A stretch of 64,000 bases of DNA from Burkholderia sp. NRF60-BP8 (GTDB lineage: Bacteria; Pseudomonadota; Gammaproteobacteria; Burkholderiales; Burkholderiaceae). Positions 40,820-49,453 of the stretch are shown one piece after another. The notes beneath the pieces were generated by a model that saw only the letters and a program-made list of their open reading frames with translations, was not told where the DNA came from and searched no databases. The stretch spans positions 372,001 to 436,000 of the forward strand of contig NZ_CP013374.1 of assembly GCF_001522585.2 (NCBI RefSeq), given 5' to 3'. Position numbers and translations under genes: made by a program. Positions within the stretch are counted from its first letter, which is position 1. Each line of letters starts with the position of its first letter.

Positions 40820-41761
40820 TCAGGTGCGCGGCAACCCCGGCGGATTGGTCTGCGACCGGTCGATCGCCTCGGCGTCCAGCCGCCAGTGATCGAGCGCCTT
40901 CCGATAGCTGCCGTTGGCGATCAGCGCATTGATCGCGAGCGTCAGCGGCTCGGCGAGGCCGCTGCCCTTGCGGGTCGTGATCGCGATGTCCGCGGTGCGC
41001 GGCCAGCCGCCGCTGACGGTGCCGATCAGCTTCGCATCGCCACGCAGCGACGCCTGATACGCGAGCATCGAGTTCACGCTGAAGATCGTGTCGATGCGGC
41101 CCGACTGCAGCGCGACCCAGCGCTCGGCCGCATCCGCGTAATACTGGATCTCGACGGGCGCGAGACCGTGCGCGACGTTCTGCCGGTTCCATTCGAGCAG
41201 GATCTTTTCCTGGTTCGTGCCCGAATCGGTCACGACACGCAACCCGGCGACATCCTTCGGCTCGCGGATCGCCGCCAGCTTGCTGCCGATCTTCACGTAG
41301 AAGCCGAGCTGGTCCTTCCGGTAGGTCGAGAAATCGAATTTCTCCTTGCGCTGCTCGGTGACCGTCACGTTCGAGATCACCGCGTCGACCTTGCCGGACT
41401 GCAGCGCGAGCGGCCAATCGGCCCACGCGAGCGGCACGATCTTCAGCTTACGGCCGATACTGTCCGCGATCAGTTGCGCGAGATCGGGATCGAAGCCGAC
41501 CACCGTGCGTGCGTCGGTCGCATAGGTGCTGAGCGGCGGCAGATTCGGTGCGATGCCGATCGTCAGCGTGTTCGCTTCGGCAAACCGGAAGCCGGCCGGC
41601 AGCGCCTGCTCGACCGCCGGGTTCACGGCGCCGCGCTGCCGGGCCGGCTGCTCGGGACTCAGGTCGAACGACGTCGCCTGCGCGGCGACGGCGCTCCCGG
41701 CAATCAGCGCGACGGCCAGCACGCGGGCGATGCGCGCAACGGGAAAAACGGTTCTTCTCAT
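40820..41761 (-). CDS. Orphan amino-acid-type periplasmic substrate-binding protein
   Basis: The start is placed at MRRTVFPVARIARVLAVALIAG (ATG at 41761), giving a signal peptide ending near AAQA and 313 residues. The SBP family 3 fold is visible: LTIGIAPNLPPLSTY, VGFDPDLAQLIADSIGRKL, the hinge-region LQSGKVDAVISNVTVTEQRKEKFDFS, and VAGLRVVTDSGTNQEK. Relatives bind polar amino acids. No ABC permease or ATPase is present in the window, so it either works with a distant transporter or has been recruited to the adjacent oxygenase/ATP-grasp locus. It is 99 bases downstream of the oxygenase gene on the same strand. Confidence 0.85.
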   Translation of the reverse strand: MRRTVFPVARIARVLAVALIAGSAVAAQATSFDLSPEQPARQRGAVNPAVEQALPAGFRFAEANTLTIGIAPNLPPLSTYATDARTVVGFDPDLAQLIADSIGRKLKIVPLAWADWPLALQSGKVDAVISNVTVTEQRKEKFDFSTYRKDQLGFYVKIGSKLAAIREPKDVAGLRVVTDSGTNQEKILLEWNRQNVAHGLAPVEIQYYADAAERWVALQSGRIDTIFSVNSMLAYQASLRGDAKLIGTVSGGWPRTADIAITTRKGSGLAEPLTLAINALIANGSYRKALDHWRLDAEAIDRSQTNPPGLPRT

Positions 41762-41860
41762 GTCTTGTGGAATCCTGTATTGATTCGACGATGCAGGAAA
41801 CGAAGCGTGCGGGCAGCGGGCCGGCAACGTTCGGCGCCAGTCGCTGCCACGCCGGGTCGC

Positions 41861-42982
41861 TCACGCAGGCGCCGCTTCGAGTTCGACCGCGGCCGCGCGC
41901 GGCGGCGCGGCTTGCACGGCCGGCGACGGCTGCCTCGCCTGCGCCGATTCGCCCGCGTACAGCGCTTTCGGGTCGAACACGCGCGCCTGCAGCGGCGTGA
42001 ACGCGCGGAAATTCCACAGGCTACGCGCGACGAACACGCGCTGCACCCAGCGGAACGCGCGATCGTTCTCGTCGTACTGCGGATCGAAGCGATCGCGCGA
42101 ATGCAGCGTGAAGTGGTTGTTGATCAGCACCAGCTTGCCGGGCGACACCTGCACGCCGAACGACACTTCGCGCACCGCGCGATACAGGTTGGCCAGCGCT
42201 TCCTGCGCGCGCGCATTGACCGCCAGCACCATGTCCGGATAGAACGCGACCGTCACGCGCGGCGCATCGAGCGGCCCCGACAGCACGGCGCTCAGGTCGG
42301 TGTTGTCGCGCGGCGTCGGCGTCGCGCCGCGCCACCGGTACGGCACGCGAATGATGTAGTGCTCGCCGTAGAGTTGCGCAATATCGTCCGGCGACAGCAA
42401 TTGAAGCGCGCGGCGCGCATCGGCGAGCCGCGTGTACGGGCCGCCGCCGGCCTCGCTGCGCACGCCGAGCAGCAGCAGCGCGAATGGCGACGTGTCGCCT
42501 TCCGGCATGTGCGCCTGCGCGGCGTTCTCGATATGGAAATCGAGTTCGACCTCGGAGCCGAGGCCCGTATAGTCGCGCGCGGTCGCCTTGTGCGGCGTCA
42601 GGTTGTTCACCAGCTCGCGGCCTTCGTGCGCGATCGAGTACGGCTCGCCGGCCAGCGTGCTCAACGCGACCAGCACGTTCTCGCTCAACACGCCGGCCTT
42701 GAAGGAGCGGCCGGTTTCCTCGAATCGCGGGCTGCCGGTCACGCCGTCGTCGATCGGCAGGTTGTCGATCTCGATCGAGCCGTGCGCGTCCGCGGTCGGC
42801 GCCTTCGCCCGATCGAATGCGTCGACGATCCGGTCGGGAAACGCGTTGTAGGCCAGCTTGCGGACCGCGCTGATATAGCCTGCGCCGCCGGCCGGATCGT
42901 AATCCAGCGCGCCGAGCGTCTTGCGGATGTGAGCGGATTCCACTGCCGTCAAAGCGATGCGTTCATCTGCGAGATAGGTCAT
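41861..42982 (-). CDS. VioC/clavaminate-synthase-like Fe(II)/2-oxoglutarate oxygenase (free amino acid hydroxylase)
   Basis: This 373-residue enzyme belongs to the clavaminate-synthase-like branch of the TauD superfamily. The metal site is His150, Glu152 (motif FHIENAAQAHMP, equivalent to the FHTE...HxP of VioC, AsnO and lysine hydroxylases) and distal His294 (LINNHFTLHSRDRF). A 2-oxoglutarate-binding Arg lies in DRAFRWVQRVF (308-315). Members hydroxylate free L-Arg, L-Lys, L-Asn or L-Orn at C3 or C4 during peptide antibiotic synthesis; which one applies here cannot be read. The C-terminal 30 residues are an Ala/Pro-rich tail. It is divergent from the MFS and ATP-grasp operon and heads a two-gene unit with the binding protein. 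Confidence 0.82.
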   Translation of the reverse strand: MTYLADERIALTAVESAHIRKTLGALDYDPAGGAGYISAVRKLAYNAFPDRIVDAFDRAKAPTADAHGSIEIDNLPIDDGVTGSPRFEETGRSFKAGVLSENVLVALSTLAGEPYSIAHEGRELVNNLTPHKATARDYTGLGSEVELDFHIENAAQAHMPEGDTSPFALLLLGVRSEAGGGPYTRLADARRALQLLSPDDIAQLYGEHYIIRVPYRWRGATPTPRDNTDLSAVLSGPLDAPRVTVAFYPDMVLAVNARAQEALANLYRAVREVSFGVQVSPGKLVLINNHFTLHSRDRFDPQYDENDRAFRWVQRVFVARSLWNFRAFTPLQARVFDPKALYAGESAQARQPSPAVQAAPPRAAAVELEAAPA

Positions 42983-43396
42983 AAGTCTCTCGTATAAAGA
43001 TCTGGTTCGAAGAGCGGCGTGGCATCGCCGCCGCGCTCCGCCGTCCTCGGGGCGAAGCGCTCGACAAGACTAGGAGACCCGCATTGCATTGCGAAATGAT
43101 ATTAATTCGATTGCAAACGAACATTATCGATATAAGTTCAGCAATCCGGCCGGAACCGGTTCACCTCGCTCGAGCGGCCCTTTAACAGGAATACTTGTTA
43201 AAAAATCGCTGCTTATTATTTGTATTCGCTAACGGGTCGATGCTATTTTTCCGTCGGATTCGACGCCGCGACCGGCGCCCGACGGGCAGCCGGCTTCCCT
43301 CGTCCGCCTTACGGAAACCCGCCCGATGAACCGATACCGCCAGCCGTCCCACGCGCCCTATACGCCCTACACACCCCATACGCCCCGGGAGTCGCG
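42983..43396. other. Divergent control region of the oxygenase/ATP-grasp locus
   Basis: This stretch of 414 bases has no gene. An AT-rich core (about 43085-43250) is framed by GC-rich flanks and should contain promoters for both directions. It holds the TTTAACAGG/CTTGTTAAA inverted repeat at 43181 and a TTCG-N8-CGAA element near 43105-43125, either of which could bind the locus regulator. Confidence 0.55.
43181..43202. promoter_or_regulatory. Inverted repeat, candidate operator
   Basis: TTTAACAGG (43181-43189) and CTTGTTAAA (43194-43202) match as an inverted repeat at 8 of 9 positions around a 4-base AATA centre. It lies in the AT-rich core between the divergent oxygenase and exporter genes, about 195 bases before the MFS start. 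Confidence 0.45.
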
Positions 43397-44839
43397 ATGA
43401 GCGATCGTGCCCCGGCGCTCGACCGCGTCGAGCGCACGCCGATCGCCGCCGCGGAATCGCCCCGCGCATCGCTGCGCGCCATCCTCCCGACCGTCGCCGC
43501 CGCGAGCCTCGGCTTCGCGATCGTCCAGCTCGACGTGACCGTGGTCAACGTCGCGATCCCGAGCCTCGGCCACGCGTTCGGATCGAGCGTCCACGGGCTG
43601 CAGTGGATCGTCGATGCCTATACGCTGTCGTTCGCCGCGCTGCTGCTGACGTCCGGCACGCTGGCCGACCGTTTCGGCAGCCGTCGACTGTTCGCGTACG
43701 GCCTTGCGCTGTTCCTGCTCGCGTCGCTCGGCTGCGCGCTCGCGCCGTCGCTGGCGGCGCTGGTTGCCGCGCGGATCGCGCAAGGCGTCGGCGCCGCGAT
43801 GATCCTGCCCACGTCGCTCGCGCTCATCACGCATGCGTGCGCCAGCGATGCCGCCGCGCGCGTGAAAGCCGTCGCATGGTGGAGCGCGACGGGCGGCGCG
43901 ATCAGCGCGGCCGGACCGACGCTCGGCGGCCTGCTGATCGATTCGCTCGGCTGGCGCGCGATCTTCTTCATCAACCTGCCGATCTGCGCGCTCGGGCTGT
44001 GGCTCACGCTGCGCCACGTGCAGGATTCGGCTGCCGCGCGCACGCGGCTGTTCGATCCGGCCGGCCAGATCGTCGCGGTGCTCGTGCTCGGACTGCTGAC
44101 GGGCGGCATCATCCGGGCCGGGGCGTACGGGATCGGCGATCCGTATGCGGCCGGCGCACTGATCGCGTCGGTCGCGCTCGGCGCGTCGTTCGTCGCGATC
44201 GAGCGGCGCGCGAGCGCGCCGATGCTGCCGCTCGCGTTCTTCCGGATCGCGCGCGTGCCGAGCGTGCTCGCGATCGGCGCGATCACGAATGCGGCGTTCT
44301 ACGGGCTGATCTTCTCGCTGAGTGTCTATTTCCAGAACGCGCGCGGCTTCACGGCGACCGAATCGGGGCTCGCGCTCGCGCCGCTCACGATCATCATGCT
44401 CGCCAACATCGCGAGCGCTCGGCTCGCGGTCCGCTACGGGTTTCGCGCGACCGTCATCGTCGGTCTCGCCGTGTCGCTCGCCGGCTATGTGTGGCTGTGG
44501 CGGACACTCGCCGCGCACGCGCCGTACGCGTTGCTGGCGCCCGGGCTCGCGGCGATGGCGATCGGCGGCGGCATCGCGATTCCCGCGCTGACGTCGACGA
44601 TGCTCGGCAGTGTCGAGGCCGGGCGCTCGGCCACTGCGTCCGCGATCCTCAATACCGCACGCCAGGTGGGCGCCGCGATCGGCGTCGCGACGCTCGGCGC
44701 GCTGGTCGCCGGCCAAGGCGCGGCCATCGCGACCGGCGCGGCGCGCGCGTTCGCCGTGGCGGCCGTGCTCGTCGCGGCCTGTGTCGTGCTGGCGGTGCGC
44801 TGGCCCGGCGACCCGGCCGATACCGGCACGCGGGCCTGA
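43397..44839 (+). CDS. MFS exporter, DHA2 (EmrB/QacA, 14-helix) type
   Basis: The ATG at 43397 has CGGGAG about 8 bases upstream and gives 480 residues (MSDRAPALDRVERTP). Typical DHA2 motifs are LDVTVVNVAIPSLGHAF in helix 1, LQWIVDAYTLSFAALLLTSGTLADRFGSRR (motif A) and ITHACAS...TGGAISAAGPTLGGLLID (motif C). Fourteen helices can be drawn. It is followed 53 bases later by an ATP-grasp gene and is divergent from the oxygenase, the usual place of a self-protection or product exporter. The alternative is a general drug efflux pump. Confidence 0.86.
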   Translation: MSDRAPALDRVERTPIAAAESPRASLRAILPTVAAASLGFAIVQLDVTVVNVAIPSLGHAFGSSVHGLQWIVDAYTLSFAALLLTSGTLADRFGSRRLFAYGLALFLLASLGCALAPSLAALVAARIAQGVGAAMILPTSLALITHACASDAAARVKAVAWWSATGGAISAAGPTLGGLLIDSLGWRAIFFINLPICALGLWLTLRHVQDSAAARTRLFDPAGQIVAVLVLGLLTGGIIRAGAYGIGDPYAAGALIASVALGASFVAIERRASAPMLPLAFFRIARVPSVLAIGAITNAAFYGLIFSLSVYFQNARGFTATESGLALAPLTIIMLANIASARLAVRYGFRATVIVGLAVSLAGYVWLWRTLAAHAPYALLAPGLAAMAIGGGIAIPALTSTMLGSVEAGRSATASAILNTARQVGAAIGVATLGALVAGQGAAIATGAARAFAVAAVLVAACVVLAVRWPGDPADTGTRA

Positions 44840-44892
44840 GCACGCCGGCGCCCCGCATCCTTCACCCGATCCCCCATCCGAGCGAGGAATCC

Positions 44893-46161
44893 ATGCAGCA
44901 TCGCTTCATCGATACCGTCCTGATCGTCGACGGCGCGTCGACCGCCGCTTACCTGGCCCCCGCGTTTCGCGCATACGGCATCCGTTGCGCGCATGTGATC
45001 AGCGACCCCGATCTGCCGGCAATCTACCGAAACCAGTTCGTGCCGTCCGACTACATCCGGCAGGTCCAGCATCGCGGCGACATCGACGCGACGCTCGCGC
45101 AACTGAGCGACCTGCGCATCGGCGCGGTGCTGCACGGCCTCGACGCGGCGCTCGAGCTGGCCGATACGCTGGCCGAGCGGCTCGACGTGCCGTTTCGCAA
45201 CCCGCTCGCGACCTCCGCCGCGCGACGCGACAAGTTCGCGATGAACGAACGCATTCGTCAGGCCGGGCTGCGCGCGCCCGCGCACTTTCACAGCACGTCG
45301 GTCGACGAAGCGCTCGACTGGGCGCGCGCGCACGGCACGTTGCCGCTCGTGGTGAAGCCGGCGCGCAGCGCGGGCGTGGCCGGCGTGAAGATCTGCCGGA
45401 CGCTCGCGCAGGTCGAGGCCGCCGCGCGCGACGTGCTGGCCACCCGTTCGCTGTACAACCAGCCGAACGACGACATCGTGATCCAGAGCTATTCCGAGGG
45501 GCAGGAATACATCGTCGACTCGGTGTCGTTCGAGGGCCGCCATCGCGTGGTCAGCCTGTGGGAGGTGCATCGCGACCGCACGCACGCGCCGCGGCTCGAC
45601 AAGATGCTGGTGCTGAACCACACCGATCCGCGCTACGCGCCGCTGCTCGACTATGCGGCCGACGTGCTCGACGCGCTGGACGTGCGCTTCGGGCCGACCC
45701 ATCTGGAGCTGTTCGATACGGCCGACGGCCCGACGATCGTCGAGCTGAACGCCCGTCTGCACGGCAGCCTCGATCCGCGGCTGACGAGCGCGGTCAGCGG
45801 CGAGAATCACGTGTCGGCCGCCGTCGAAGCCGTGCTGCATCCGGAGCGGCTGTTCGGCGACGTCGCCGCGCCGACGGATTTTCGCGGGTACTGCGGGCAC
45901 GTGCTGTTGCTGTCGTCGCGCAACGGCGTGCTGCGGCAGGATTTCACGTGGCAGGCGATCCAGGCGCTGCCGTCGTTCGTCGGGCTCAAGCAGTGGGTCA
46001 AGGTCGGCGACTCGCTGCGCGTGACCACCGACCTGCAGACGGCGCTCGGCACGGTCGGCCTCTACAGCCCGACCTTCGAGCGGCTGCTCGAGGATTGCCG
46101 GCGGATTCGCGAAATCGAGGCCGACTTCTTCGCGGACGAAGGCGCGGTCGCGCCGGCCTAG
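44893..46161 (+). CDS. ATP-grasp carboxylate-amine ligase 1
   Basis: This 422-residue enzyme starts at MQHRFIDTVLIVDGAS (ATG at 44893, GCGAGGA upstream). The pre-ATP-grasp domain is followed by the ATP-grasp core: LPLVVKPARSAGVAGVKICRT (ATP-binding lysine and flexible loop), DDIVIQSYSEGQEYIVDSVSFEG, and metal-binding LELFDTADGPTIVELNARLHGS. In that last motif the usual NPR is written NAR. The order resembles BacD and related L-amino acid alpha-ligases that join two amino acids or tailor small peptides. The C-terminal 90 residues (HVLLLSSRNGVLR onwards) form the extra lid domain of this subgroup. It is cotranscribed with the MFS exporter. The substrates are unknown. Confidence 0.84.
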   Translation: MQHRFIDTVLIVDGASTAAYLAPAFRAYGIRCAHVISDPDLPAIYRNQFVPSDYIRQVQHRGDIDATLAQLSDLRIGAVLHGLDAALELADTLAERLDVPFRNPLATSAARRDKFAMNERIRQAGLRAPAHFHSTSVDEALDWARAHGTLPLVVKPARSAGVAGVKICRTLAQVEAAARDVLATRSLYNQPNDDIVIQSYSEGQEYIVDSVSFEGRHRVVSLWEVHRDRTHAPRLDKMLVLNHTDPRYAPLLDYAADVLDALDVRFGPTHLELFDTADGPTIVELNARLHGSLDPRLTSAVSGENHVSAAVEAVLHPERLFGDVAAPTDFRGYCGHVLLLSSRNGVLRQDFTWQAIQALPSFVGLKQWVKVGDSLRVTTDLQTALGTVGLYSPTFERLLEDCRRIREIEADFFADEGAVAPA

Positions 46162-46194
46162 CGCGTGTTCACGCCAGGGCCGCGCAGTCTCGTA

Positions 46195-47070
46195 TCAGCG
46201 TGCGAGCAGCGCACCGGCCTGCCGGCCGAGCACCGCGCGCAATGCGTCGAGTTCGGGCAGCGCAGGCGCTTCGTCGGGCGTGACGAGGTAGGTGGTCACG
46301 CTGCCGAGATCGTCGAACGCATGCGTGCGCAGCTCCTTGCGCGCCACGTGCTCGGCCGTGATCCGCTTCGGCAGGATCGCGACGCCCATCCCGGCCGCGA
46401 CGCAGCCGAGGATCGCGCCGAACGTGCCGAACGACGACACCGATTCGATCGCGACACCGCGCGCCTTCAGCCAGTGCTCCGCGACCGCGCGATACGGGCA
46501 GCCGTCGTGAAACGCGAGCAAGCGCACCGTGTTGTCGGCCAACAGTTGCCGGCGCGTGACGGTCGCCGCGCTCGCCAGCACCATGTCTTCCGCGAACGCG
46601 GGCTCGTAACGCAGCCCGGGCCGCACGACCGCGCGCGCGGTGAGCGCCGCGTCGATCCGGCCGCGCAACAGCGCGTCGGCCAGGTCCGGCTCGCTGCCGA
46701 TCTGCACCACGAGGCCGAGCGCCGGATCGCGTTCCTTCAGCGCGGCGGCCAGCGCCGGCAGCCGCGTGGCGGCCGTGCTTTCCATCGACCCCAGCCGCAA
46801 GCCGCGGGCTACCGGCGTTTCGCGCACCACCTGCGTCGCTTCGTCGACGAGACGCAGGATGCGGTCGCAATACGGAATCAGCCGGCGCCCGGCATCGTTC
46901 AGCACCAGCCGCTTGCCGTGTCGATCGAACAGCGGCGCGTCGAGCGACTCTTCGAGCTGGCGCAGCCGCGCCGTGACGTTCGATTGCGTGCAGCCGAGCC
47001 GTTCGGCCGCGCGCAACGCGCTGCCTTCCTGCACGACGGTCCGGAAAGTTTCGAGGAGAGGGATGTTCAT
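46195..47070 (-). CDS. LysR-type regulator of the ATP-grasp locus
   Basis: This 291-residue LTTR has an N-terminal winged helix-turn-helix (MNIPLLETFRTVVQEGSALRAAERLGCTQSNVTARLRQLEESL) and a periplasmic-binding-like effector domain (GLRLGSMESTAATRLPALAAAL, LAFHDGCPYRAVAEHWLKARG). CTQSNVTARLRQLE is the recognition helix region. It is divergent from the BASS transporter with a 150-base AT-rich gap, and it sits between the two ATP-grasp operons. It most likely controls the transporter and ligase 2, and perhaps ligase 1. Confidence 0.88.
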   Translation of the reverse strand: MNIPLLETFRTVVQEGSALRAAERLGCTQSNVTARLRQLEESLDAPLFDRHGKRLVLNDAGRRLIPYCDRILRLVDEATQVVRETPVARGLRLGSMESTAATRLPALAAALKERDPALGLVVQIGSEPDLADALLRGRIDAALTARAVVRPGLRYEPAFAEDMVLASAATVTRRQLLADNTVRLLAFHDGCPYRAVAEHWLKARGVAIESVSSFGTFGAILGCVAAGMGVAILPKRITAEHVARKELRTHAFDDLGSVTTYLVTPDEAPALPELDALRAVLGRQAGALLAR

Positions 47071-47220
47071 ATCACTTTCTCTTGTTACAGATTCAGTTTA
47101 TATCATTTTACTTCTCCAATCATCCGGATTAGCCTAGGCTGTCCGCTTCCAGGGAATCCGCATGCCATCCGCCGCCCGCTTCGGCTTCACTCCGGCTCGC
47201 CACCGGCCCGAGGTTCGCCC

Positions 47221-48165
47221 GTGCGCGCACTGATCGCCGCGTTGGTGCGGCGCGGCCCGACCGTGCTCGCGTGCGGCGTCGGCCTCGGGCTGCTGGCGCC
47301 GCCGCTGGCCGACCTCGCGCGGCCGCTGATGCCCGCGACCGTGTTCCTGTTCGTGCTCGGCACGCTGCTGCGCGTCGAGCCGAGCGCCGTGCGCGCGGTG
47401 GCGCGGCGTCCCGCCGTGTCGCTGCTGCTGCCCGCCATGACGATGATCGCGTGCCCGGTCGCGCTCGGCATCGCCGCGCGGCTCGCCGGCCTGCCGTACG
47501 ACTGGGTCGTGGCGCTGGTGATCGCGTACTGCGCGCCGCCGTCGAGCGGCACGTCGACGATCGCGCGCATGCTGTCGCTCGACGCCAGCGTCGCGCTCGT
47601 CGCGACCCTCGCGTCGATGGTGTTCGTGCCGCTGACCGCCCCGTTGCTGACGGCCTGGTTCAGCCACGACGCGGCGGTGTCGATCTCGCCGTCGAGCCTC
47701 GCGCTGCGGCTCGCGCTGCTGATCGGCAGCGCCGAAGGCGTCGCGTTGCTCGTGCGGCGCTTTGCCGGCGCGCGGCTCGCGCGCCACGCGACCCCGATCG
47801 ACGCGATCGTCGTCGCCGCGCTGCTGATATTCGCGCTCGGCACGATGGCCGGCATGCAGCAGTCGATCATCGACGCCCCGCACCGCGCACTGACCGCGAT
47901 CGCCCTCGCATTCGCCGTCAACGCGGGTTTCCAGATCGTCGCGTACGGGCTCACGCCCGGCGACGTCCGCACGCGCCTGAACGTCGCGCTGATCGTCGCC
48001 AATCGCAACGTCGGGCTGATGTGGGCGGCGCTCGGGCTGGCCGCGACGCCGACCATAGCGCTCGTGTTCGCGTGCGCGCAGTTGCCGATCTATACGCTGC
48101 CGCGCGTCGTCCAGCATCTGCTGCCGCGCCTCGAAGCGCAGCAGCTGCGCCGGCGCCCCCGCTAG
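47221..48165 (+). CDS. BASS-type (bile acid:sodium symporter family) membrane transporter
   Basis: A GTG at 47221 with GAGG 7 bases upstream gives 314 residues; no in-frame ATG suits. Around nine to ten membrane helices are seen, starting ALVRRGPTVLACGVGLGLLAPPL. Family-like features are VIAYCAPPSSGTSTIARMLSLDASVAL and the late ALIVANRNVGLMWAALGLAA. It is divergent from the LysR gene and 37 bases before ligase 2, so it may move the substrate or product of this locus. Bile acids are not the expected substrate. Confidence 0.75.
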   Translation: MRALIAALVRRGPTVLACGVGLGLLAPPLADLARPLMPATVFLFVLGTLLRVEPSAVRAVARRPAVSLLLPAMTMIACPVALGIAARLAGLPYDWVVALVIAYCAPPSSGTSTIARMLSLDASVALVATLASMVFVPLTAPLLTAWFSHDAAVSISPSSLALRLALLIGSAEGVALLVRRFAGARLARHATPIDAIVVAALLIFALGTMAGMQQSIIDAPHRALTAIALAFAVNAGFQIVAYGLTPGDVRTRLNVALIVANRNVGLMWAALGLAATPTIALVFACAQLPIYTLPRVVQHLLPRLEAQQLRRRPR

Positions 48166-48202
48166 CCGGCTTCCCTCTTCCGCCCTCGATCAAGGATTCG
48201 TC

Positions 48203-49453
48203 ATGAAGCGACTCATCGTGATCGGCGCACGCGCCACCGGCAGCAGCGTCGCGCTGGTGCGCGCCGCCCTCGCACGCCAGGCGGCCGTGACCGTCGTCAC
48301 CGCGCCCGGCCATCGTCTCGACGGCGTGTTTCCCGACGGCGTCGAGACGGTCAATCTCGCGCCCGACGCCAACCAGCTCGCCGGCTGGCTGCGCGCGCGC
48401 TTCGCGGACGAACTGGACACGCTGCGCGTGACGACCGCGCACGACACCTATGCACGCACCGCCGCATGGGTCGCCGATGCGCTCGGGCTGCCCGGCCCCG
48501 ATGCACGCCACGTCGCGCACGCGGTGTCGAAGTCGAACCAGAAGGCATTGCTCGCCGCGCACGGGATCCCGGCCGCGCAGTTCGTCGCGGGCACGCTGGC
48601 CGCGCCGGCGGCGCTCGCGGCCGCGGCTGCCGCGTTGCGCTTGCCGGTCGTCGTCAAACCGTCGGAAGGCTCCGCGAGCGACGGCGTGCGCCGCTGCGAG
48701 GACGTGGCCGCCGTGCGCGCGCAGCTGGACGCGCTCGCCGCCATGCAAGCCGATGACGCTTCGCGTGCGACCGAACGCGTCGTCATCGAGGAATTCCTGG
48801 AGGGCAGCGAATACTGCGTCGAGTATTTCGACGGTCGATACGTCGGCGCGCTGCGCAAGCTGAAGCGGCACGGCGCCGGTTTTCTCGAGCGCGGGTATAC
48901 ATCCGAACTCGATCTCGACGCCGACACGCTGCATGCGCTGATCGACGTCGGCACGCGTGCGACGGCCGCCGCCGGGCTCACGTGGGGGCCCGTGCATCTC
49001 GACTGCATCGTGCACGACGGCGTGCCGCACGTGATCGAACTGAATCCGCGCATCGCGGGCAGCTTCATCTGCGACATCGTGCGCGACGGCTACGGCTTCA
49101 ACGTGGTCGAAGCGTTGCTCGACAAGCTCGATGGACGGACGGTGACGATTCCCGAGCTTTTCGAGCCGCACGCGTATGCGCGCGCCGAATTCCTGCTCGA
49201 CAGCGATCCCGGTGCGTGGCGGTTCGCGCAGGCCGGCGAGATCGACGACGGCGCGGTCAGGATCAGCTATGGGCCGCAAGTGCTGCCCGATCGCGAACGG
49301 CGCGCGTTTCTTTATGTGCGCGTTGCGTTGCCGGCTGTGCATGGTTCAGCGGACGACGCGGGTTCCGCGGCCGAGCGCCGAGCCGTCGTGCAGCCGACGC
49401 GGGCGGCGGCTCCGTCTCCCGCTCTGAATCCTTCCGCCGGAGAAATAGCGTGA
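48203..49453 (+). CDS. ATP-grasp carboxylate-amine ligase 2
   Basis: This 416-residue enzyme is distinct from ligase 1. The N-terminal Rossmann-like domain (MKRLIVIGARATGSSVALVRAAL) is followed by the ATP-grasp core: RLPVVVKPSEGSASDGVRRCED, VVIEEFLEGSEYCVEYFDGRYVGAL, and the metal site LDCIVHDGVPHVIELNPRIAGSF with canonical NPR. The C-terminal lid region contains EPHAYARAEFLLDSDPG, then a Ser/Ala-rich tail. Similar enzymes (BacD, RizB and phosphonopeptide ligases) form alpha-peptide bonds using acyl phosphates. It is cotranscribed with the BASS transporter. Two unlike ligases near one amino-acid hydroxylase suggest a di- or tripeptide product. Confidence 0.84.
   Translation: MKRLIVIGARATGSSVALVRAALARQAAVTVVTAPGHRLDGVFPDGVETVNLAPDANQLAGWLRARFADELDTLRVTTAHDTYARTAAWVADALGLPGPDARHVAHAVSKSNQKALLAAHGIPAAQFVAGTLAAPAALAAAAAALRLPVVVKPSEGSASDGVRRCEDVAAVRAQLDALAAMQADDASRATERVVIEEFLEGSEYCVEYFDGRYVGALRKLKRHGAGFLERGYTSELDLDADTLHALIDVGTRATAAAGLTWGPVHLDCIVHDGVPHVIELNPRIAGSFICDIVRDGYGFNVVEALLDKLDGRTVTIPELFEPHAYARAEFLLDSDPGAWRFAQAGEIDDGAVRISYGPQVLPDRERRAFLYVRVALPAVHGSADDAGSAAERRAVVQPTRAAAPSPALNPSAGEIA

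Follow-up and report, generated by a model that had tools for sequence, protein, structure and literature searches.

The DNA analysed here is a stretch of 64,000 nucleotides from Burkholderia sp. NRF60-BP8 (positions 372001–436000 of contig C3 in a 7.08-Mb genome of three contigs), designated the window in the following. Between positions 40820 and 49453 it carries seven genes, which encode an SBP_bac_3-type periplasmic amino-acid-binding protein (SBP) and a clavaminate-synthase-like (CSL) Fe(II)/2-oxoglutarate (2OG) oxygenase (OXY), a divergent MFS protein and an ATP-grasp ligase (AG1), and then a LysR regulator, a transporter of the bile acid:Na symporter superfamily (BASS), and a second ATP-grasp ligase (AG2). 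This locus is an inherited unit, whose order and content are kept within the genus beyond chance and whose four-gene core is kept in seven genera. We consider it fairly probable that it represents a compact cluster independent of nonribosomal peptide synthetases (NRPS), in which an oxidised amino acid of the acidic type would be ligated into an exported di- or tripeptide. An initial annotation of the DNA had proposed a candidate natural-product locus at this place; all genes that it named are present, and SBP at the left edge is an additional one.

Co-inheritance of the gene set

All 17 loci that were fetched around OXY from genomes of the same genus contain SBP, OXY, MFS, and AG1, and in 16 of them LysR, BASS, and AG2 also lie inside the 19 kb taken; in the seventeenth (L050, genome G193), these three genes are on the same contig as OXY, at a distance of approximately 17–20 kb. 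OXY, which is a single-copy gene in the source genome, was found in 25 of 65 genomes of the genus (E ≤1e-60), with at least 93% identity in 24 of them and with 68% in G306. AG1 (E limit 1e-60) and AG2 (E limit 1e-40) were each detected in 24 of the 65, the genomes being identical for both ligases and all OXY-positive, and at these limits neither was found in the other 41. The co-occurrence of OXY, AG1, and AG2 over the 65 genomes corresponds to a Fisher value of 6e-17 with phylogeny ignored.

BASS is present in 28 of the 65 genomes. For three of the four genomes that have BASS only, the locus was fetched (L158, L159, and L160); LysR and BASS are present there, and SBP, OXY, MFS, AG1, and AG2 were not found in the fetched stretch. 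In the window, the left flank of the cluster is formed by genes for a GtrA family protein and a family 2 glycosyltransferase (named after the B. pyrrocinia record), which also flank it in related genomes. The LysR-BASS pair lies downstream of the same two genes in two of the BASS-only loci, and the third fetched stretch starts inside GtrA. Since these loci hold LysR-BASS alone, the biosynthetic part is missing as a block, with the regulator and the transporter remaining, and a role of the pair in uptake or protection in non-producers is possible.

For the comparison beyond the genus, one genome per species was scanned with an OXY alignment, which gave 114 relatives, of which 80 were kept, and plasmid records added seven OXY relatives, one of them weak; gene families at these wider loci were defined by picking of open reading frames (ORFs) and not by annotation. 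OXY relatives occur in at least 20 named genera, including Legionella, Bartonella, and Bacillus, and in metagenome-assembled genomes (MAGs). The set of loci with an OXY of at least 59% identity comprises 29 members, among them four plasmid loci (L066–L069); it shares several genomes with the set of 17 loci, so that the two counts are not independent. OXY, MFS, AG1, and AG2 are found together in 26 of the 29 loci in four arrangements, the genera being Burkholderia, Paraburkholderia, Robbsia, Variovorax, Pantoea, Rahnella, and Erwinia. The order is that of the window in Burkholderia, OXY / MFS-AG2-AG1 with BASS farther along in Paraburkholderia bryophila, OXY-MFS-AG1-AG2 in Robbsia, LysR / OXY-(BASS)-MFS-AG2-AG1 in Variovorax, where BASS is included in two of five loci, and OXY-MFS-AG2-AG1 in Pantoea, Rahnella, and Erwinia. 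The full core is lacking in L077 of B. lata, in which, as in L050, AG2 is farther off, in L086 of Trinickia, which has an orphan OXY, and in L133, a fragment. In the comparison of gene order that the initial annotation had proposed, the genes of the locus hence stay together; its term "Burkholderia pathway" is too narrow, the core being also present in the other genera named. The pairwise protein distances of the four core genes correlate with r values of 0.78–0.99, and 0 of 999 permutations were as high (17 sequences, from the window and 16 of the 26 four-gene loci, Rahnella excluded), an agreement which could come from common descent alone.

Active site of the oxygenase and relationships of the ligases

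OXY (41861–42982, minus strand, 373 aa) was assigned by fold, profile, and motif. Its AlphaFold model (pLDDT 84; loop 138–147 and the tail past residue 341 are poor) has the CSL fold with AsnO, KDO1, VioC, NapI, OrfP, and CmnC as best structural matches, and TauD was not among the 50 matches listed in either structure search with OXY. A profile of the OXY family ranks AsnO at the top (101 bits), followed by OrfP, NapI, CAS1, and KDO1, and the Pfam match (PF02668, 6e-10) is to a broad model. These fold ranks and profile scores, which were used for the placement instead of a tree, bear out the earlier description as an oxygenase of the amino-acid-hydroxylase type. Residue counts are based on 185 rows including the window (relatives with a length of 300 aa or more among the best 120 of 203, plus locus ORFs with 270 aa or more). 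The iron ligands His150, Glu152, and His294, which had been named exactly, are kept in 185, 185, and 184 of these rows, the single gap being due to a truncated row.

In CSL enzymes, a Glu or Gln at position P2 contacts the alpha-amine, an Arg at P18 the 2OG, and an Arg at P19 the carboxylate of the substrate (PMC6224419). The side chain is chosen by positions P12–P15, for which the same study gives DXXD for basic amino acids, PPSD for AsnO, and PYRA/V together with Tyr at P16 for group G6, a group known there from sequences and homology models and assumed on this basis to use Glu- or Asp-like substrates (PMC6224419). In the HMMER alignment, Glu125 of AsnO is located opposite E120 of OXY, which faces a residue of OrfP as well, the PPS lid opposite P214-Y215-R216, and the sub-pocket Asp opposite A246, which precedes Y248 by two residues. 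The AsnO numbers 125, 155, 157, and 241 are offset by 24 from the printed chain, and the step of two residues from P15 to P16 is as in VioC. E120 (P2) is present in 185 of the 185 rows and R311 and R315 (the Arg residues of P18 and P19) in 184, and the combination of P-x-R, Ala or Val, and Tyr248 is found in 180, with an exact PYR in 153 and His, Phe, or Met for the Tyr in 27; the five deviating rows belong to four Stutzerimonas loci and one Pseudomonas MAG locus. OXY itself has the G6 motif (PYR, A246, and Y248, the positions being transferred via the alignment).

OXY shares with AsnO, KDO1, VioC, OrfP, NapI, and CmnC the fold, the 2-His-1-Glu triad, and the residues that bind the alpha-amino acid, and differs from them in the side-chain pocket, which is PYR-A/V-Tyr and neither DXXD nor PPS-D. 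The acidic DXXD sub-pocket of VioC, OrfP, and KDO is replaced by P214-Y215-R216 and A246; PYR-A likewise takes the place of the PPS-D sub-pocket of AsnO, and L141, in the poorly modelled loop 138–147, that of its P6 residue Asn146. As E120, R311, and R315 are kept and Arg and Tyr replace the acids, the grip on a free alpha-amino acid is presumably retained and the pocket changed, and OXY looks suited to acidic and not to basic amino acids. With the DXXD and AsnO pockets absent and a G6-type site in their place, the Arg, Lys, Asn, or Orn substrate named in the initial annotation is unsupported and probably wrong.

Both AG1 (44893–46161, plus strand) and AG2 (48203–49453, plus strand) belong to the ATP-grasp_4 type. 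They had been described as unlike, correctly so, because BLASTP aligns them over a single ATP-grasp stretch of 152 residues with 30% identity, the rest being at chance level. AG1 exceeds the cut-off of the PRK07206 subfamily (311 vs 302 bits), can be aligned over almost its entire length with 30vh, an L-amino acid ligase of known structure (9–409 of 422, E 7.4e-52), and has 31% identity to the annotated ddaF product over 411 aligned positions; it is below the DdaF model NF041595 (214.7 bits vs a cut-off of 840). AG2 matches the ligase BL00235 (3vot) in residues 87–307 only, i.e. in the ATP-grasp part (E 6e-16), resembles the ATP-grasp half of PRK02186 (146.6 bits, under the cut-off), and is below the BacD model NF053745 (23.7 bits vs 850). 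The ATP-grasp domain is hence common to these ligases and BacD, whereas the equivalog cut-offs of BacD and DdaF are not reached by AG2 and AG1, respectively. Named relatives of AG2 come from Burkholderia, Variovorax, Rahnella, Pantoea, Klebsiella, Erwinia, Providencia, Robbsia, and Paraburkholderia, all of them genera with OXY relatives, and also from Roseateles and, distantly, one Streptomyces; those of AG1 come from Burkholderia, Paraburkholderia, Variovorax, Roseateles, and Robbsia, and more distantly from Streptomyces and a single record labelled as an alga. For Klebsiella, Providencia, and Roseateles, these lists stand for gene presence and do not imply adjacency. The comparisons support a classification of AG1 and AG2 as L-amino-acid-ligase-like enzymes of the putatively peptide-bond-forming kind, and their occurrence in only the 24 cluster-bearing genomes of the 65 together with their resemblance to L-amino-acid ligases and DdaF argues against the housekeeping function that the initial annotation had kept in view.

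Proposed pathway, precedents, and alternative explanations

In the proposed pathway, the substrate of OXY would be a free alpha-amino acid of the Glu/Asp type, whose side chain is acidic or else large and polar, and the reaction would be an oxidation, most likely a hydroxylation. ATP-grasp enzymes activate carboxylates as acyl phosphates. By this chemistry, AG1 and AG2 would form one or two amide bonds at the expense of ATP and link the oxidised residue to one or two ordinary amino acids to give a di- or tripeptide. Export of the peptide would be due to the MFS protein (43397–44839, plus strand, start predicted; PF07690, 1e-44), which had been described as an exporter and indeed matches the efflux-type DHA2/EmrB kind, with a score below the cut-off of the EmrB subfamily model (1.6e-58; 198.6 bits vs 230.2). 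BASS (47221–48165, plus strand, start predicted; Pfam SBF PF01758, 22.7 bits, just below the cut-off of 24.3) and SBP (40820–41761, minus strand; PF00497, 1.1e-26) may move substrate or product. Relatives of BASS adjoin OXY in two of the five Variovorax loci; in seven Pseudomonas loci and one Halomonas locus, a single gene separates them from it. SBP is located downstream of OXY on the same strand after a gap of 99 bp, with no permease gene adjacent, and is absent from L066 of B. pyrrocinia BX1 and from other genera.

The cluster genes would be controlled by LysR (46195–47070, minus strand, domain match), which is likely to be the pathway regulator, since its relatives are divergent from OXY in five Variovorax loci (46–49% identity) and in G306 (56%). 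A candidate operator is the palindrome TTTAACA-N8-TGTTAAA (43181–43202) between OXY and MFS, which occurs once in the window (0.01 expected) and nowhere else in the genome. The OXY-MFS intergenic region was aligned for the window and 13 of the 15 other Burkholderia loci among L066–L149; the exact palindrome is present in seven of the 15 and in none of the non-Burkholderia loci among L066–L149.

The closest precedents are dapdiamide and mangotoxin, and the cluster is a further variant of the ATP-grasp kind of small-peptide pathway. The dapdiamide cluster of Pantoea agglomerans (ddaA–I) also combines a ligase (DdaF, related to AG1 along its whole length) with an oxygenase, of the TauD/TfdA type, and yields a small antibiotic peptide. 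Its oxygenase, however, could not be related to OXY by sequence (E 0.45), for which reason identity with dapdiamide was rejected, and none of the core genes described here corresponds to its SbnA/SbnB, asnB, and NRPS-type genes. Mangotoxin of Pseudomonas syringae (mboA–F) is reported to be a tripeptide formed without NRPS by two ATP-grasp amino-acid ligases and an oxidising enzyme (PMC13185094). Our locus likewise has two ATP-grasp ligases and an oxidising enzyme, but MboA is reported there as a heme-oxygenase-like diiron oxidase with a flavin/Fe-S partner and not as an Fe/2OG enzyme; a peptide built in the same manner with a different oxidase is thus a precedent for the proposed scheme (PMC13185094). 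Other ligase-oxygenase operons that have been described are of the MtRS-cupin and diiron oxygenase-cupin types (PMC2922099). Among the core genes of our locus no NRPS is present, although no NRPS search of the window or the genome was made. A published description of the cluster was not found in the open-access literature (titles, abstracts, and passages; subscription papers were mostly outside this search).

Several observations weigh against the proposed pathway. Product, substrate, activity, and the direction of export are all predicted from genes; the G6 assignment is one by motif, and the Glu/Asp preference is an assumption that its authors made from models. The lid and the loop 138–147 of OXY are the least certain part of the alignment and the model. 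The AG1 of Rahnella aligns in two pieces and has a short annotation, so that this copy may be broken, and the exact palindrome is absent from eight of the 15 other Burkholderia loci. Ligase-free or orphan OXY copies exist in Trinickia (L057), in G306, in Pseudomonas and Halomonas, in Serratia and Photorhabdus, and in Bartonella, which indicates that OXY is independent of ligases in some settings. Outside the clade of 59–98% identity, the OXY-type oxygenase is accompanied by an amidohydrolase and BASS in Pseudomonas and Halomonas and by an AEC carrier in Serratia, Photorhabdus, and other Pseudomonas (Pfam on one member), and in the Bartonella loci L120 and L121 an MFS gene directly precedes the OXY relative (Pfam on one). 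The theme of the wider family is an oxygenase with a carrier, ligases being present in some branches only, so that a role of this wider family other than in peptide formation is possible.

These ligase-free settings favour the explanation that OXY, BASS, and SBP form a nutritional module for uptake and modification, with the ligases making a storage or conjugation form and MFS acting in general efflux, and the persistence of LysR-BASS without OXY and the ligases in the three fetched of the four BASS-only genomes fits it as well. We regard it as unlikely, because the ligases and the exporter accompany OXY in 26 of the 29 loci of the 59–98% clade and AG1 and AG2 are absent, at the E limits given, from the 41 other genomes of the genus. 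Quite unlikely is a pathway of the same kind with an organosulfur residue, either a sulfonate or an S-substituted cysteine, as the acidic amino acid. SBP is 70% identical to a paralogue on contig C1 (L065, 8809–18328), where an operon-like run encodes a GNAT protein, the binding protein, luciferase-like and NtaA/DmoA monooxygenases, a fused ABC permease/ATPase, and a second binding protein; the run resembles operons for the utilisation of organosulfur amino acids, and the best models for its amino-acid-type ABC transporter are ectoine, cystine, and glutamine, all under the cut-off. Two of the three Pantoea loci, as well as Rahnella, extend the cluster by genes for an NtaA/DmoA-type FMN monooxygenase and a class I/II aminotransferase and by a third gene of the ATP-grasp type (the third ATP-grasp match in Pantoea sp. 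Mb-10, L087, being partial only), and B. cepacia LK29 has an aminotransferase (53% identity) and a monooxygenase (41%) beyond AG2 and one more gene. Together with the setting of the C1 paralogue, these FMN enzymes make an organosulfur acid a possible substrate of low probability, and the P. bryophila copy lies among sulfonate/taurine-type transport genes and TauD. Yet OXY is found in only one of 117 sampled genomes of the genus of P. bryophila, so that this setting may be the accident of a single insertion (other Paraburkholderia with OXY were named in the protein search), and the FMN enzymes of P. bryophila and Pantoea share only about 27% identity. The close aminotransferase accompanies the cluster in one of 24 Burkholderia (LK29, also the only one of the 65 genomes to have it, three others matching at 38–41%), and neither L066 nor the other genera have the binding protein.

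That OXY hydroxylates Arg, Lys, Orn, or Asn in the manner of VioC or AsnO and feeds a peptide antibiotic would agree with the best sequence and fold matches (AsnO, KDO1, VioC, OrfP); we hold it to be very unlikely in view of the Ala/Val in place of the P15 Asp, a lid of PYR and not D-x-x or PPS, and Leu141 opposite Asn146 of AsnO. That the genes are unrelated neighbours with housekeeping ligases, to which the ability of LysR-BASS to persist alone would lend itself, is extremely improbable given the co-inheritance and the rearranged yet intact gene sets in seven genera. The cluster for an oxidised acidic residue accordingly remains our preferred interpretation: a short peptide with an oxidised amino acid is probably made and exported, and the general proposal of such a peptide with a hydroxylated residue in the initial annotation is well supported, its named substrates not. 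A further-reaching and doubtful extension is that G6 oxygenases act on free acidic alpha-amino acids (possibly sulfonates or S-substituted cysteine), that the ligases turn the products into exported peptides with antimetabolite activity, and that LysR-BASS serves to take up or withstand the product of a neighbour; as part of this joint proposal, the locus might give G6 oxygenases their first pathway role.

Neighbouring genes, related loci, and significance

The right flank of the cluster in the window consists of a gene for a NIPSNAP protein followed by a second LysR gene. A protein of 567–569 aa without a Pfam match adjoins AG2 or BASS in two related loci (L162, 8914–10617; L158, 9856–11565; mutually 90% identical), and by eye we presume a resemblance to M14 peptidases. 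In the Pseudomonas locus L095 (7066–13185), the genes before OXY are desaturase-like (fatty acid type) and for a further 2OG oxygenase, of the DIOX_N type, and those after it are for an amidohydrolase and a BASS-like protein. In Pseudomonas, Massilia, Telluria, and Variovorax, the neighbourhood of the oxygenase includes a gene for a small Cys-containing protein (L095, 13213–13617; L101, 13339–13818; L108, 8779–9405; L122, 7285–7671; L090, 14967–15347), of which the single copy compared with Pfam, that of L095, had no match. Bartonella contributes OXY relatives to 19 of the 80 loci (L120–L145), which is odd for a host-restricted genus. In Legionella (L103, 10965–16111), genes for the oxygenase, a flavin reductase, an Asp/Glu racemase, a 453-aa protein without a Pfam match, an L-amino acid ligase (LAL_C2), and an MFS protein are consecutive. 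A separate cluster, seen in two genomes from a different genus within the family (L061, 6647–16643; L062, 6797–15755), comprises LysR, SBP_bac_3, a small gene, a semialdehyde dehydrogenase, an amino acid kinase, the E chain of methylaspartate (glutamate) mutase, a distant OXY-like oxygenase (27–29%, tblastn), ATP-grasp, and MFS, the L062 genes being matched to those of L061 mostly via size and order; it looks like a pathway toward a residue derived from 3-methylaspartate.

For the Pantoea version of the cluster, known products of this genus were considered. PNP-1 (PMC4010436) and PNP-4 (PMC7744662) were rejected owing to their other gene content, and so was PNP-2, a cluster of six genes in 5,784 bp, one of which is predicted to encode a ferredoxin reductase (PMC11350110). 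Possible identities are PNP-3, which is described in the latter survey with 8,487 bp and eight genes and there in Pantoea only (PMC11350110), and pantocin B, with 17,288 bp and 13 genes.

If the proposed pathway is correct, 24 of the 65 sampled Burkholderia genomes and some Variovorax, Pantoea, Rahnella, and Erwinia would carry an uncharacterised peptide pathway of a few genes, small enough to be rebuilt in vitro, and the role of the G6 oxygenases, a type whose OXY-related members extend over at least 20 named genera, would become directly testable.

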